From: Mycolicibacterium baixiangningiae
Lineage (GTDB): Bacteria > Actinomycetota > Actinomycetes > Mycobacteriales > Mycobacteriaceae
DNA length: 64,000 nt
Assembly: GCF_016313185.1 (NCBI RefSeq)
Contig: NZ_CP066218.1
Location: forward strand, 1,364,001-1,428,000
Reading direction: 5' to 3'
Below are positions 6,844 to 61,035 of this stretch, piece after piece (position 1 is the stretch's first letter; each line of letters opens with the position of its first letter). Made by a program: the position numbers and the translations under genes. Under the pieces are notes generated by a model that saw only the letters and a list, made by a program, of their open reading frames with translations, made no database searches and was not told the origin of the DNA.

Positions 6844-8052
6844 GTGCTACATGTGACATTGGGCTGCGATTCCGAGGTCGGCACGTTACGGGTGGCGATC
6901 CTGCACCGCCCCGGCGCGGAGCTGCAGCGGTTGACCCCGCGCAACAACGATGCGCTGTTGTTCGACGGATTGCCGTGGGTGTCGCGCGCCCAGGAGGAGC
7001 ACGACGCGTTCGCCGAGCTGCTGCGGTCGCGAGGTGTCGAGGTGCTGCTGTTGGCCGACCTGCTGACCGAGGCGCTGTCCAGCGGGGCGGCGCGCATGCA
7101 CGGGATCGCGGCGGCCGTCGACCCGCGCCGGTTGGGAATACCACTGGCACAGGAACTCTCCGCGTACCTGCGCACCCTGGAAGCCGCCCCGCTGGGACAC
7201 GTGCTCGTCGCGGGCATGACGTTCAACGAGTTGCCGTTCGCCGCGAGCGACCTGTCGCTGGTGCGCCGCATGCACCACGGCGGAGATTTCGTGATCGATC
7301 CGCTGCCCAATCTGCTGTTCACCCGCGACTCGTCGTTCTGGATGGGGCCGCGGGTGGCGATCACCTCGCTGTCGCTGCCCGCCCGGTCCCGCGAGACGTC
7401 GCTGACCGACCTGATCTACGCCCACCATCCGCGGTTCCTCGGGGTGCGACGGGCCTACGAGTCGCGCTCGGCGCCGGTCGAAGGCGGTGACGTGCTGCTG
7501 CTGTCGCCGGGCGTTGTCGCCGTCGGGGTGGGGGAGCGCACGACGCCCGCGGGGGCGGAGGCATTGGCGCGCAGCCTGTTCGACGACGATCTGGCACACA
7601 CCGTGCTCGCGGTGCCGATCGCCCAGGAGCGCGCGCAGATGCATCTGGACACGGTGTGCACCATGGTCGACGTCGACGCCGTCGTGATGTACCCGAACGT
7701 CGTCGACTCGTTGTCGGCGTTCACGATTCACCGCAACGGCGACGGCGGGGTGCGGATCGACGATGCCGCGCCGTTCGTGGCCGCCGCCGCCGAGGCGATG
7801 GGGATCGACCGGTTGCGCGTCATCGACACGGGGCTCGACCCGGTCACCGCCGAACGCGAGCAGTGGGACGACGGGAACAACACCCTAGCGCTCGCCCCGG
7901 GTGTGGTGGCTGCGTATGAGCGCAACACCGAAACTAATGCGCGGCTTGCGGATTCGGGCATCGAGGTGCTGGCGATCGCGGCATCGGAGCTGGGCACCGG
8001 CCGCGGCGGGCCGCGCTGCATGTCGTGTCCGGCCGCGCGCGACCCGCTCTAG
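6844..8052 (+). CDS. arcA: Arginine deiminase
   Basis: Hydrolyses L-arginine to citrulline and ammonia, in the cytosol. The 402-residue protein has the family landmarks: [15 protein letters not shown] near the start, NLLFTRDSS, the catalytic His/Glu region [10 protein letters not shown], and the C-terminal nucleophile Cys in [18 protein letters not shown] 6844 is chosen because GGTGGGGG (6829-6836) is correctly spaced; GTG 6853 is an alternative start. It matches M. tuberculosis Rv1001 closely. No other arc genes are next to it, so ammonia release or arginine turnover rather than a full ATP-yielding deiminase pathway is supported locally. It is divergent from soxR across a SoxR box, so redox control is possible but not shown. 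Confidence 0.95.
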
Positions 8053-8061
8053 GGGCGCCTT

Positions 8062-8092
8062 CGCCGCGAAACAGCATTCCCGGTCGTCAAGC
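8062..8092. repeat. Left 31-bp inverted repeat flanking the DUF559 gene
   Basis: It pairs with 9022-9052 in inverted orientation at 29 of 31 positions, including an unbroken 22-bp run around CGAAACAGCATTCC. The inner end overlaps the stop codon of the enclosed gene (8087-8089). The outer end abuts the arcA stop codon by 9 bases. Confidence 0.9.
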
Positions 8093-8956
8093 CGAGCGGT
8101 TGGCAGCCCTGCGTTCTGTCTCGCGCTGGGCCCACGACTCGCGCACCCGCTGCACGATCTCGTAGGGCCGGTCCTCGGCGATCACCCGGACATGTAGCCA
8201 GCCACGTCGTCGCAACCTGGTCAGCCGTTTGTGATCCCACACATATCGCAGGCGGTCGTGTTGGTGCTGCTTGCCGTCGTACTCGACGGCGATCATGACG
8301 TCCTCCCAACCCATGTCGAGATAGGCGAAGGGGTCACCGTAGTCGTCCAACACGGGGATTTGGGTGGCCGGTCGCGGGAACCCGGCATCGATCAGCAACA
8401 ACCGCAGCCAAGTCTCTTTCGGCGACTGGGCGCCGGCGTCCATCAGATCGACGGCCTCCCTGCACCGCTGGAGACCGCGTGCTCCCTTGTACCGATCCGC
8501 GAGTGGGAGGACGTGTTCGACCGACAAGCCCGTCGCCCTGGCGAGCGCATCGAGATGCGCGACGGCCGCCCCGCGGGGAAGGAATCGGCCGAGATCGAGA
8601 GCAGTTCGCTGAATCGAAGCGACCGCCATGCCGCTGATCTCGACGACCTCGTCGCAGGCGAAGCGGTCATTGCGCGCGATGATCCCCCGCGGCGGGCGGT
8701 TGTTGCGCCATATCAATTCGATCGGAGCGTTCTCGTCGACCCACTCGGCTCCGTGCAGCGCCGCTGCGGCTCTGCCGGTGACCACACCGCGACGTTTCGA
8801 CCACAGCCACGCGCCAACGGTGTTGTGGTAGAGCGACGGCTCTGCGATCGCGGGTTGGTACACATCCGGGAAAATCGCCCGGTACGCCGTTCGTAAGCGT
8901 GCCCGTGACATCTCGCCACGAGCCAGCGCTTCGCTGCCCAAGAATACGGTCCTCAT
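8087..8956 (-). CDS. DUF559/VSR-like endonuclease-domain protein
   Basis: A 289-residue protein with two parts. Residues 1-170 resemble the AbiEi-like N-terminal region common in mycobacterial proteins of this type (GSEALARGEMSRARLRTAYRAIFPDVY, split here by a helix, then GRAAAALHG). Residues 195-285 form a PD-(D/E)XK fold of the DUF559/VSR type, with the acidic site in MIAVEYDGKQHQHD and a following basic helix KRLTRLRRRGW. This supports DNA nicking or cleavage, but no substrate is known. The gene lies between inverted repeats and is absent between arcA and pmt in M. tuberculosis, so it looks like a mobile or cargo gene. It could also be a stand-alone relative of abortive-infection proteins. 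Confidence 0.8.
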   Translation of the reverse strand: MRTVFLGSEALARGEMSRARLRTAYRAIFPDVYQPAIAEPSLYHNTVGAWLWSKRRGVVTGRAAAALHGAEWVDENAPIELIWRNNRPPRGIIARNDRFACDEVVEISGMAVASIQRTALDLGRFLPRGAAVAHLDALARATGLSVEHVLPLADRYKGARGLQRCREAVDLMDAGAQSPKETWLRLLLIDAGFPRPATQIPVLDDYGDPFAYLDMGWEDVMIAVEYDGKQHQHDRLRYVWDHKRLTRLRRRGWLHVRVIAEDRPYEIVQRVRESWAQRETERRAANRSA

Positions 8957-9021
8957 GCGCAGATGATGCTCAGCTCGTCCGACAGGTCGACGAGACAGCA
9001 GCGAGGGCTATCAACAGGCGC

Positions 9022-9052
9022 GCTTGACAGCCGGGAATGCTGTTTCGCGGCG
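9022..9052. repeat. Right 31-bp inverted repeat flanking the DUF559 gene
   Basis: Partner of 8062-8092 (two mismatches in 31). It ends 21 bases before the stop of pmt. Outside the repeats some weaker symmetry continues (GGCGCCTT on the left against CAAGCGCGCC on the right). No clear direct target duplication is visible. Confidence 0.9.
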
Positions 9053-9073
9053 CAAGCGCGCCAAGCGCGAAAG

Positions 9074-10615
9074 CTACCGCCAGCTGGGCAGCCAGATCTG
9101 CATGTTCCACGTCGACTGGCTGATCGGGATGCCGGTGAGAATCGGGAACAGCCACGCGAAGTTCGTGATCACCAGCGCCACATAGCCGGCGACGACCATC
9201 AGCCCCAGCGTGCGCCGCTCGGCGTTCTGCCGCGGCGCCCGCAGGATGTCCCCGAGGATCAGCGCGATCGCCATCACCAGGAACGGCGCCATCACGGCCG
9301 CGTAGAAGAAGTACATCTGCCGGTCGATGTCGGCGAACCACGGCAGGAAGCCCGCCGAATATCCGGTCAGCACCACCGCGTACCGCCAGTCGCGCTTGAC
9401 GAACGCGCGCCAGATCGCCCACCCCAGCACCGGCACCGCGATGAACCACATGGCCGGCGTGCCGACGAGCATCACGGCCTTCACACACGACTGCGCACCG
9501 CAGCCCGGCACGTCCTGGTTGTCGATCGCATAGAGCACCGGCCGCAGCGACATCGGCCATGTCCACGGCTTCGACTCCCACGGGTGGTGGTTGCCGTCGG
9601 CGTTGGTCAGCCCGGAATGGAATCGGTACGCGGCGTAGGTGTAATGCCACAGCGAGCGCACGGCATCGGGGACCGGCCACGCGCTGTGCTCGCCGATGGA
9701 CTGTCCGGCCTCATGCCGGTTGACCCCGGTCTCGGAGGCGAACCACGGCGTGTACGACGCCAGGTACACCGCGACGGGGATGAGCCCGAGCGCGTAGGCG
9801 GCCGGACCCGTATCGCGGCGCAGCGTGCCCACCCACGGCCGCGCCACCCGGTACTGCCGGCGCGCCGCGACGTCGAGGGCCAGCGTCATCACGCCGAAGA
9901 ACACGACGAAGTAGAGCCCCGACCACTTCGTCGCGCACGCCAGGCCGAGAAGCACACCCGCACCGAATCGCCACCACCGCACGCCGAGCCGCGGCCCCCA
10001 CGGCGTCTCCGCGATCCGCCCTTCGAGCAGGGCGACGTGCATCCGTTCCCGGACCTGGTCGCGGTCGACCATCAGGCAACCGAACGCCGCGACGACGAAG
10101 AAGGTGAGGAACCCGTCGAGCAGCGCAGTGCGCGACGCGACGAAGGTGACGCCGTCGGCGATCAGCAGCAGCCCGGCGATACCCCCGACGGCCGTCGAGC
10201 GGCTGATCCGCCGCGCGATCCGTGCGACGAGCAGGATCAACACCACCCCGCACACCGCTCCGGAGAACCGCCAGCCCAGCCCGTTGTAGCCGAACAGCGC
10301 CTCGCCGATCGCGATCAGCTGTTTGCCGACGGGCGGGTGCACCACCAGCCCGTAGCCGGGGTTGTCCTCGACGCCGTGGTTGTGCAGCACCTGCCAGGCC
10401 TGCGGGGCGTAGTGCTTCTCGTCGAAGATCGGCGTGCCGGCGTCGGTGGGTGAGCCGAGGTTGAGGAACCGGGTGATCGCGGCGAGTGCGGTGACGACGG
10501 CCGTCATGGCCCAGCCCTGCAGCCGGTCGACCGGTCCGAAGTCGGCGACCGGGACCAGAGGGGCCGGGCTGATGACCGGGACCGCGCGCGGAGCTTCGGT
10601 GGCGGGGGCGGTCAC
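9074..10615 (-). CDS. pmt: Dolichol/polyprenol-phosphate-mannose protein O-mannosyltransferase
   Basis: A GT39-family integral membrane enzyme that transfers mannose from polyprenyl-phosphomannose to Ser/Thr of proteins being exported by Sec. It has 513 residues with about eleven hydrophobic segments. The first extracytoplasmic loop has the catalytic Asp-Glu pair in IFDEKHYAPQAW, and HPPVGKQLI follows. Start GTG 10615 is chosen for match in length to M. tuberculosis Rv1002c; upstream in-frame codons read through the divergent rsmI gene. It is divergent from rsmI with 24 bases between starts, so the two must share a very compact promoter region. Confidence 0.94.
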   Translation of the reverse strand: MTAPATEAPRAVPVISPAPLVPVADFGPVDRLQGWAMTAVVTALAAITRFLNLGSPTDAGTPIFDEKHYAPQAWQVLHNHGVEDNPGYGLVVHPPVGKQLIAIGEALFGYNGLGWRFSGAVCGVVLILLVARIARRISRSTAVGGIAGLLLIADGVTFVASRTALLDGFLTFFVVAAFGCLMVDRDQVRERMHVALLEGRIAETPWGPRLGVRWWRFGAGVLLGLACATKWSGLYFVVFFGVMTLALDVAARRQYRVARPWVGTLRRDTGPAAYALGLIPVAVYLASYTPWFASETGVNRHEAGQSIGEHSAWPVPDAVRSLWHYTYAAYRFHSGLTNADGNHHPWESKPWTWPMSLRPVLYAIDNQDVPGCGAQSCVKAVMLVGTPAMWFIAVPVLGWAIWRAFVKRDWRYAVVLTGYSAGFLPWFADIDRQMYFFYAAVMAPFLVMAIALILGDILRAPRQNAERRTLGLMVVAGYVALVITNFAWLFPILTGIPISQSTWNMQIWLPSWR

Positions 10616-10639
10616 GTCTTCAGATCGTAGGCTGTGGGC

Positions 10640-26634: not shown

Positions 26635-26647
26635 TCCCCGCGACCGC

Positions 26648-26669
26648 GCGTGTCTGTACGCAGACACGC
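26648..26669 (+). terminator. Hairpin terminator after pks16
   Basis: GCGTGTCTG and CAGACACGC form a perfect 9-bp stem with a TACG loop, 14 bases after the stop codon. No T-tract follows. The flanks (CCGCGACCGC before, GCGCTCGCGG after) look like part of a longer dispersed mycobacterial palindrome. Confidence 0.6.
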
Positions 26670-26759
26670 CGCGCCAAGCGGACAAAGGTGTGCGCTCGCG
26701 GTGACGGCATTGACGCAGCGTGATCGAAACCGTTCTGCGCGAAGGCGTCTCGCGCCACG

Positions 26760-52334: not shown

Positions 52335-52398
52335 GCGCGAGCAGACGCAAAGCTGCCCCATTTCGACGAATTCTGGACAGCTTTACGTCTGCTCGCGC
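52335..52398. repeat. Long imperfect palindrome (GCGAGCAGACGC family), copy 1
   Basis: Arms 52335-52358 and 52375-52398 are complementary at 22 of 24 positions with a 16-base loop. The core GCGAGCAGACGC recurs at 56871. It separates the converging ppx and DUF4383 genes and could act as a two-way terminator. Confidence 0.85.
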
Positions 52399-56870: not shown

Positions 56871-56930
56871 GCGAGCAGACGCAAAGTCCCCCGAAATCTG
56901 TGCCAAAACGGTGATTTCGCGTCTGCTCGC
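56871..56930. repeat. Long imperfect palindrome (GCGAGCAGACGC family), copy 2
   Basis: GCGAGCAGACGC (56871-56882) and GCGTCTGCTCGC (56919-56930) are perfect inverted arms, with CGAAATC/GATTTCG nested inside. It lies between the end of kdpE and the start of prpE and may terminate kdpE. Confidence 0.85.
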
Positions 56931-60949: not shown

Positions 60950-61035
60950 ATGTGCCTTTTGCCCGGCTATTAGCGACAACATCGAGGCGCGCGACAATCG
61001 AGCGACGTTGTCGCGCATAGGCGGGCACTTCACAT
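60950..61035. repeat. Nested imperfect palindrome, possible MITE-like unit
   Basis: Outer arms ATGTG/CACAT, middle arms GCCCGGCTAT/ATAGGCGGGC (9 of 10), and inner arms GCGACAAC (60973-60980)/GTTGTCGC (61007-61014) are nested. A second GCGACAA at 60991 can pair with the same right arm, giving two exclusive hairpins. It lies between the LysA-like gene and the RidA remnant. Confidence 0.7.

Follow-up and report, generated by a model that had tools for sequence, protein, structure and literature searches.

A DUF559-type nuclease gene between lineage-specific palindromes in Mycolicibacterium baixiangningiae, probably part of a REP-like system with a nuclease in the transposase's place

We analysed a stretch of 64,000 nucleotides from the Mycolicibacterium baixiangningiae genome (contig NZ_CP066218.1, positions 1,364,001 to 1,428,000 of the forward strand; hereafter the window), in which a DUF559/MTES_1575-type gene lies between inverted repeats at the junction of arcA and pmt. 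AbiEi-DUF559 nuclease lineages lie between two copies of a lineage-specific palindrome of about 55-65 nt; gene-free copies of such palindromes (solo hairpins) occur elsewhere in the genome, mostly at gene 3' ends, and their presence at orthologous sites varies by species. Hairpin sequence varies with the protein and not with the site. The window element is probably the gene-bearing form of a system that resembles repetitive extragenic palindromes (REPs) and their REP-associated tyrosine transposases (RAYTs), with a nuclease in the transposase's place.

Paired hairpins around AbiEi-DUF559 genes

The outer arms of the window element (8062-8092 and 9022-9052) are inverted copies identical at 29 of 31 positions and enclose a unit of 991 bp, the stop codon of the gene (8087-8956, minus strand) falling within the left arm, exactly as an earlier note on this DNA had described; a longer inverted match joins 8045-8123 to 8991-9069 (79 nt, 77%, E-value 4.7e-14). 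The neighbours named in that note, arcA and pmt, were confirmed by the domain matches given in Table 1. Both ends of the element are decayed hairpins, each outer arm having a degenerate partner on its inner side. The best pairing falls at 61 nt total for both ends, which is the length of the solo copies, and 13 and 12 pairs are kept in the outer 20 of the two ends, a level that 7 and 33, respectively, of 1000 shuffled versions of the other arm attain. A simple palindrome scan did not pick out these two hairpins because their inner arms have decayed.

The window protein gave a weak, below-cutoff match to MTES_1575 REase (PF18741) and weak AbiEi matches, and the AbiEi matches returned by PADLOC were also weak only. 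In the structure model, an AbiEi-like N-terminus is predicted to be joined to a nuclease fold resembling those of Vsr and I-Bth0305I, in agreement with the domain reading of the earlier note. Residues D214, D227, G228, H231 and D241 are invariant among 65 aligned sequences, and E225 is found in ≥90%. As modelled, the protein has a Vsr-type PD-(D/E)XK fold with conserved acidic and His residues, and the gene product is a probable DNA-cutting enzyme. Pfam scans of the nuclease genes found no HUH single-tyrosine transposase domain, and no DDE or other transposase was found in the full-length element by Pfam and NCBIfam scans; the gene carries no transposase domain in the Pfam scans, as had been claimed. 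The NCBIfam search returned no match, the sequence-profile search of the PDB returned nothing at E-value ≤ 1, and Rfam applied to 9 loci at E-value ≤ 0.1 returned a single sub-threshold ALIL match, inside a gene. TnsB and TnsC partner genes, sought as a test for a Tn7-like TnsA, are absent from this single-gene cassette. The phage collection gave one weak match only (27%), and the plasmid records gave 6 weak protein matches (28-38%) and one short DNA match for the locus L124; neither collection therefore points to a phage or plasmid origin.

A search of the 6.18-Mb genome with the window protein (E-value ≤ 0.001) returned 13 matches, corresponding to 12 DUF559/AbiEi-like loci, the window gene included; the other 11 show the same layout or traces of it. 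Two adjacent matches (L007 and L013) resemble one broken gene, and L011 is a fragment. Related hairpins stand on both sides at 10 of the 12 loci (L001, L002, L003, L005-L008 and L010-L012) and on one side only at L004 and L009, and hairpin sequence is unlike between most of them. The one-sided L009 (1432-2268, minus strand) is a decaying paralog with a degenerated nuclease motif, having lost the EYDG stretch of most others, and L003 contains a tandem duplication of the 3' end of the DUF559 gene plus the hairpin (2320-2512; 76 nt, 95%).

For a wider set we combined the best 80 of at least 544 confirmed relatives in named genomes with the arcA-pmt loci and two further loci (L104 and L105), which located 134 cassettes, 128 of them with enough flank; a few genes are present twice, including doubles with identical proteins. 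In 83 of the 128 cassettes (9 of 12 in the M. baixiangningiae genome, 16 of 38 at arcA-pmt, 2 of 2 for L104/L105 and 56 of 76 in named genomes), the similarity of the upstream to the downstream flank exceeded that of 99% of 2000 control pairs taken at equal spacing from the M. baixiangningiae genome. A palindrome score for the whole flank was also tried and was rejected as too noisy, either flank exceeding 95% of controls in 5 of 12, 12 of 38, 2 of 2 and 33 of 76 cassettes of these groups, respectively.

Hairpin sequence follows the protein

Protein and hairpin similarity were compared across 80 cassettes at 24 sites, after L014, a second entry of the L001 gene, and cassettes whose proteins were identical had been dropped; a score of ≥20 was counted as agreement between hairpins. 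Among pairs from different sites, hairpins agreed in 27 of 37 at protein similarity 0.6-0.9, in 15% of 285 at 0.5-0.6 and in ≤1% below 0.5. A tblastx comparison of the flanks (up to 1.5 kb) found similarity in 0 of the 37 pairs, and blastn found a 19-nt match in one. Pairs from the same site with protein similarity 0.4-0.5 shared hairpins in only 19% of 70 cases. With one cassette per site, the nearest-neighbour statistic was significant (15.06 vs 11.61, mean p 0.001).

A second nuclease clade shows the same association. Two pairs of CGAGCAGACGCAAA about 1 kb apart flank a DUF559-type gene in each of two genomes (G004 and G002), its product being about 30% identical to window-type proteins. 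A search with the second-clade protein gave matches at E-value ≤ 1e-40 in 43 of 60 genomes, from which we fetched 30 loci, one per genome (56-100% identical); of the lower matches, the one inspected was L012 of M. baixiangningiae (52%), whose hairpin is different. The CGAGCAGACGCAAA arm (≤2 mismatches) stands beside the gene in 30 of 30 fetched cassettes, on both sides in 27 and on one side in 3 (L269, L279 and L281). These cassettes occupy about 11 sites without shared flanks, three loci having one flank only. One site cluster, including L254 and L257, holds 14 of the 30 (among L104, L105 and L254-L283) and is another hot spot; the gene before the cassette there resembles the end of rpoC, with the open reading frames (ORFs) read by eye.

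The inner stems of the cassette hairpins vary in sequence while keeping their pairing within a copy. In 51 cassette hairpins of the CGAGCAG family, the inner stems differ by 57% between copies, and inner pairing is 0.68 within a copy vs 0.44 between copies (permutation maximum 0.50, with relatedness left in). Over 23 nuclease lineages, the top shared 9-mer occurs in 6 and shuffles reach 3-5, which is too weak for the claim of a universal motif. No listed hairpin starts with a GTAG foot at the core edge used; the flanks had no systematic scan for it, and CGTC was not searched for. Several arcA-pmt hairpins of other species (among L019-L036) have the common inner letters AGGGTCGT...CACAGCCCT, unlike the lineage of the window.

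Solo hairpins and the states of insertion sites

Allowing ≤3 mismatches, the window outer arm has 19 matches in its own genome vs 1 for the control: 2 in the cassette, 14 at 8 solo hairpin sites and 3 others, of which one was inspected (L242) and has no hairpin. The 8 solo hairpins carry the outer arms of the window cassette and are thus short derivatives that share the ends of the full-length element, which fits the earlier idea of a small element moved in trans. In 12 other genomes of the genus the same arm has 0-4 matches (controls 0-2), except for 8 in G011. The L002 arm has 33 matches in its own genome (control 0), with 2 in the cassette and 31 at 21 solo sites; the other 20 genomes combined gave a single further match. 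The CGAGCAGACGCAAA arm has 22 matches in the M. baixiangningiae genome and occurs in 50 of 60 genomes of the genus, with up to 77 matches, the reversed control occurring in 0 of 60. A 464-kb sample (twenty evenly spaced 20-kb stretches plus the window) held 9 solo matches for 6 of the 12 cassettes, of which two are partial, at 31 and 33 nt; reversed queries gave 2 matches, of 17 and 22 nt. According to the earlier note, the cassette idea would fail if the repeats were frequent genome-wide without the gene. Solos are indeed dispersed in this way, and a REP-like system of one nuclease gene and many solo hairpins is a better account than a plain cassette; the interpretation first offered is in that sense partly supported.

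Numbers of hairpins rise with the matching nuclease. For the CGAGCAGACGCAAA arm, the median number of matches per genome was 13 in the 34 genomes with a nuclease at ≥57%, 5 in the 9 at 49-56% and 1 in the 17 without (p 1.3e-5, the cassettes' own arms included); the fairer figure, obtained by subtracting 4 cassette arms from each of the 34 genomes, is a median of 9 vs 1 in the other 26 (p 0.006).

Gene context was assigned with crude gene calls for the 35 of 37 solos that have a located hairpin (3 from G002 or G004). These lie between convergent genes in 16 cases, co-directional genes in 11 and divergent genes in 1, with 6 inside an ORF call and 1 undetermined; by the same method, 65 gene pairs of the window are convergent in 14 cases, co-directional in 37 and divergent in 14. 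Solos often lie a few nt past stop codons. The window solo at 52335 is absent from the corresponding place in G042, where the flanks align with 62 vs 155 nt between them, and by eye it is also missing in G068 and G079; several other relatives have other palindromes at that place.

An arcA match at E-value ≤ 1e-50 was found in 106 of 118 genomes of the genus, a few of them to a distant or partial relative, and the junction with pmt was read at 70 loci. A DUF559 gene is present in 40 (37 with pmt in reach), pmt follows without the gene in 21, and neither lies in the stretch fetched in 9. The gene is therefore not fixed at this locus, and the earlier proposal of a nuclease cassette with end repeats of its own and empty sites was right. 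Seven of the 21 gene-free gaps are 0-24 nt long, two (L053 and L079) are filled by some other sequence, about 1 kb in length, and 12 measure 30-259 nt; 7 of these 12 hold a palindrome reached by ≤3 of 200 shuffles (L042, L044, L045, L049, L059, L060 and L083). The gap L083 is a CGAGCAGACGCAAA hairpin, so one junction may hold the cassette of one lineage and, in another species, the solo of another. Filled, bare and single-hairpin versions of the arcA-pmt junction all occur, and it is a hot spot.

At a second site (L006, read in 22 relatives), the same cassette and hairpin type is present in L284-L287 and a diverged type in L288, with other sequence or cassettes elsewhere. In L298 a decayed copy of 525 nt retains two hairpins that resemble each other, and L293 and L299 are short gaps holding one palindrome of a different type. 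These empty sites were seen in comparisons between species. Outside the family, relatives at E-value ≤ 1e-10 were found in 6 of 8 genomes from other families of the order. We checked 18 of the 20 matches, leaving out the partial L330 and L333, and the two flanks beat every mismatched pairing in 6 of the 18 (L316, L318, L321, L328, L331 and L332; three genomes); L315 has a like pair by eye and fails the test (28.0 vs 29.0).

Mechanism, alternatives and known systems

From the fold, the pairing and the numbers we infer that movement of the hairpins is the work of the nuclease. Recognition of the conserved outer ~14-20 nt of each arm would fall to the AbiEi-like part or to the dimer as a whole, and the Vsr-like domain would then cut there, with the hairpin in duplex, cruciform or single-stranded form. 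As the cut end is repaired or replicated, either the short hairpin (non-autonomous and frequent) or the hairpin-gene-hairpin unit (autonomous and rare) could be copied, to a new intergenic position or into a hairpin, allelic or related, that already stands at the target. Solos landing just past stop codons would be tolerated and may act as terminators. That direct repeats are not in excess at the solo edges, and that hot spots are shared, would suit repair-based copying better than a cut-and-paste transposase, although this is no proof. On balance we favour a separate actinobacterial class of REP-like parasites, in which a two-domain nuclease acts without any transposase or recombinase, identifying its own hairpin by the outer arms and spreading bare and gene-bearing forms alike, and in which nuclease-hairpin pairs co-diverge into many orthogonal pairs that re-invade the same junctions.

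Several observations weigh against this reading. No movement was directly seen, the comparisons being between species and not strains. The flank test was failed by 45 of the 128 cassettes, with control pairs from one genome only; L002 is among these failures, its arms agreeing and its loops differing, and the others probably include decayed copies. The 37 pairs in the protein-hairpin comparison are not independent, since a limited number of lineages recur, and with one cassette per site the overall rank correlation between protein and hairpin was not significant (0.044, mean p 0.35). Inner pairing was only marginal in 16 of 18 CGAGCAG solos (0.636 vs 0.505, permutation maximum 0.631), and solo sets of 10 and 7 showed no extra pairing within copies. 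The window family has no solo at all in the 464-kb sample. Solos can also be abundant without a close nuclease, with 53 arm matches in G051 and 12 in G046 where the nuclease is absent at E-value ≤ 1e-40, and the M. baixiangningiae genome has 22 CGAGCAG-family arms, yet only the 52% relative L012, with a different hairpin. No excess of target-site duplications was seen: 3 of 35 solos have direct repeats where 2.8 would be expected, the edges being uncertain by a few nt.

Four other explanations were weighed. A free-standing homing endonuclease could cut the allelic site that lacks the cassette or has a hairpin only, and be copied in by repair, the solos being leftovers of deletion; we regard this as unlikely, given that homing alone does not place tens of hairpins across a genome. 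It is improbable, too, that another enzyme, such as an IS200/605-like or other transposase encoded elsewhere, moves the hairpins while the nuclease is a passenger or an addiction or defence cargo. The missing transposase domain and the many arm matches without a close nuclease in G051 and G046 would agree with such an enzyme, but a passenger should not track the hairpin by lineage, as the nuclease does over unrelated sites and in two distant clades, and hairpin numbers rise where the matching nuclease is present. The defence cargo raised in the earlier note finds no support in the window, where no AbiEii nucleotidyltransferase partner adjoins the gene (the neighbours are arcA and pmt) and the PADLOC matches are weak.

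There is little to recommend the view that each hairpin is just an ordinary bidirectional terminator of a convergent gene pair, and that the cassette inserts into such a terminator and duplicates it as a target-site duplication. The frequent position of solos a few nt after stop codons, the convergent genes around 16 of 35 (14 of 65 window gene pairs) and the palindromes in 7 of 12 gene-free arcA-pmt gaps of 30-259 nt are what it would lead one to expect. It predicts, however, that hairpin type goes by site, and the type goes by protein; one hairpin type occurs in the 30 fetched second-clade cassettes at ~11 sites, and the L002 hairpin family is nearly confined to 1 of 21 genomes. As a full account this explanation is already contradicted, and terminator activity of solos could be a side function. 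We give scarcely any credence to the AbiEi-like domain being a regulator with the palindromes as operators for autoregulation and a small regulon, because solos sit at the 3' ends of genes, with 1 of 35 flanked by a divergent pair, because a 55-65-nt hairpin on each flank of the gene, one overlapping the stop codon, would be an odd operator, and because the hairpins turn over between species at orthologous sites.

The favoured REP-like reading can be set beside several known systems. The C-terminal domain of the window-type nuclease is predicted to share its fold and acidic/His motif with Vsr and I-Bth0305I, whose nuclease fold is named EDxHD; it differs in its AbiEi-like fusion and in being tied to hairpin repeats and not to mismatch repair or introns. 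From the AbiEi antitoxin of type IV toxin-antitoxin systems it differs in that no AbiEii toxin gene adjoins and a nuclease domain of its own is present. Insertion sequences with miniature inverted-repeat derivatives likewise have short derivatives sharing their ends, but the transposase is absent here. REPtrons, in the passages of PMC3733652 that we drew on, are REP palindromes with RAYT tyrosine transposases, and they share with the present system a single gene flanked by palindromes, repeat-specific genes, dispersed solos and several families per genome (PMC3733652). The enzyme here is an AbiEi-Vsr-like nuclease in contrast to the HUH tyrosine transposase of REPtrons, and the system is hence not a member; its palindromes are also 55-65 nt long with long stems, and the GTAG foot is absent from the listed copies at the core edge used. 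The mycobacterial stem-loop families Myt-1 and Myt-8 (PMC2267715) and the CGAAA-N19-TTTCG motif (PMC5217627) are, in the excerpts seen, dispersed palindromes of the same genus and possibly in part the same elements, likened by description and not by sequence, and those excerpts name no gene partner. Among the papers listed by searches of the open-licence PMC literature, no title, abstract opening or retrieved passage linked DUF559 or MTES_1575 proteins to palindromic repeats.

If the reading is true, it would give a role to a large unexplained DUF559/AbiEi protein family in mycobacteria and a gene partner to palindromic repeats so far catalogued without one. REP-like repeat populations would have arisen also with an unrelated enzyme, the specificity code could be tested directly on the many orthogonal nuclease-hairpin pairs, and DNA spread without a transposase would be a new chemistry.

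The features of the window are collected in Table 1.

Table 1. Features of the arcA-pmt element and solo hairpins in the window (window coordinates)
Feature	Position	Strand	Remarks
Left hairpin	8062..8128	.	61-nt core 8065-8125; outer arm 8062-8092; inner arm degenerate, within gene 3' end
DUF559/MTES_1575-type nuclease, 289 aa	8087..8956	-	predicted AbiEi-like N-terminus ~2-173 and Vsr-like C-terminus ~176-280
Right hairpin	8988..9052	.	61-nt core 8989-9049; upstream of start codon; outer arm 9022-9052, inner arm degenerate
arcA, left neighbour	6859..8052	+	convergent with pmt; arginine deiminase (ADI) match, E-value 4e-121
pmt, right neighbour	9074..10636	-	PMT domains
Solo hairpin	52335..52398	.	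family other than that of the window cassette; arm GCGAGCAGACGCAAA; no nuclease gene adjoining
Second solo hairpin	56871..56930	.	same family as 52335..52398

Two further places in the window may hold solos. A strong palindrome of a different sequence type (60960-61027, score 16.2) is perhaps a solo of yet another family, and 31 nt at ~26641-26671 match the L012 cassette hairpin at 87% and are a possible decayed solo.
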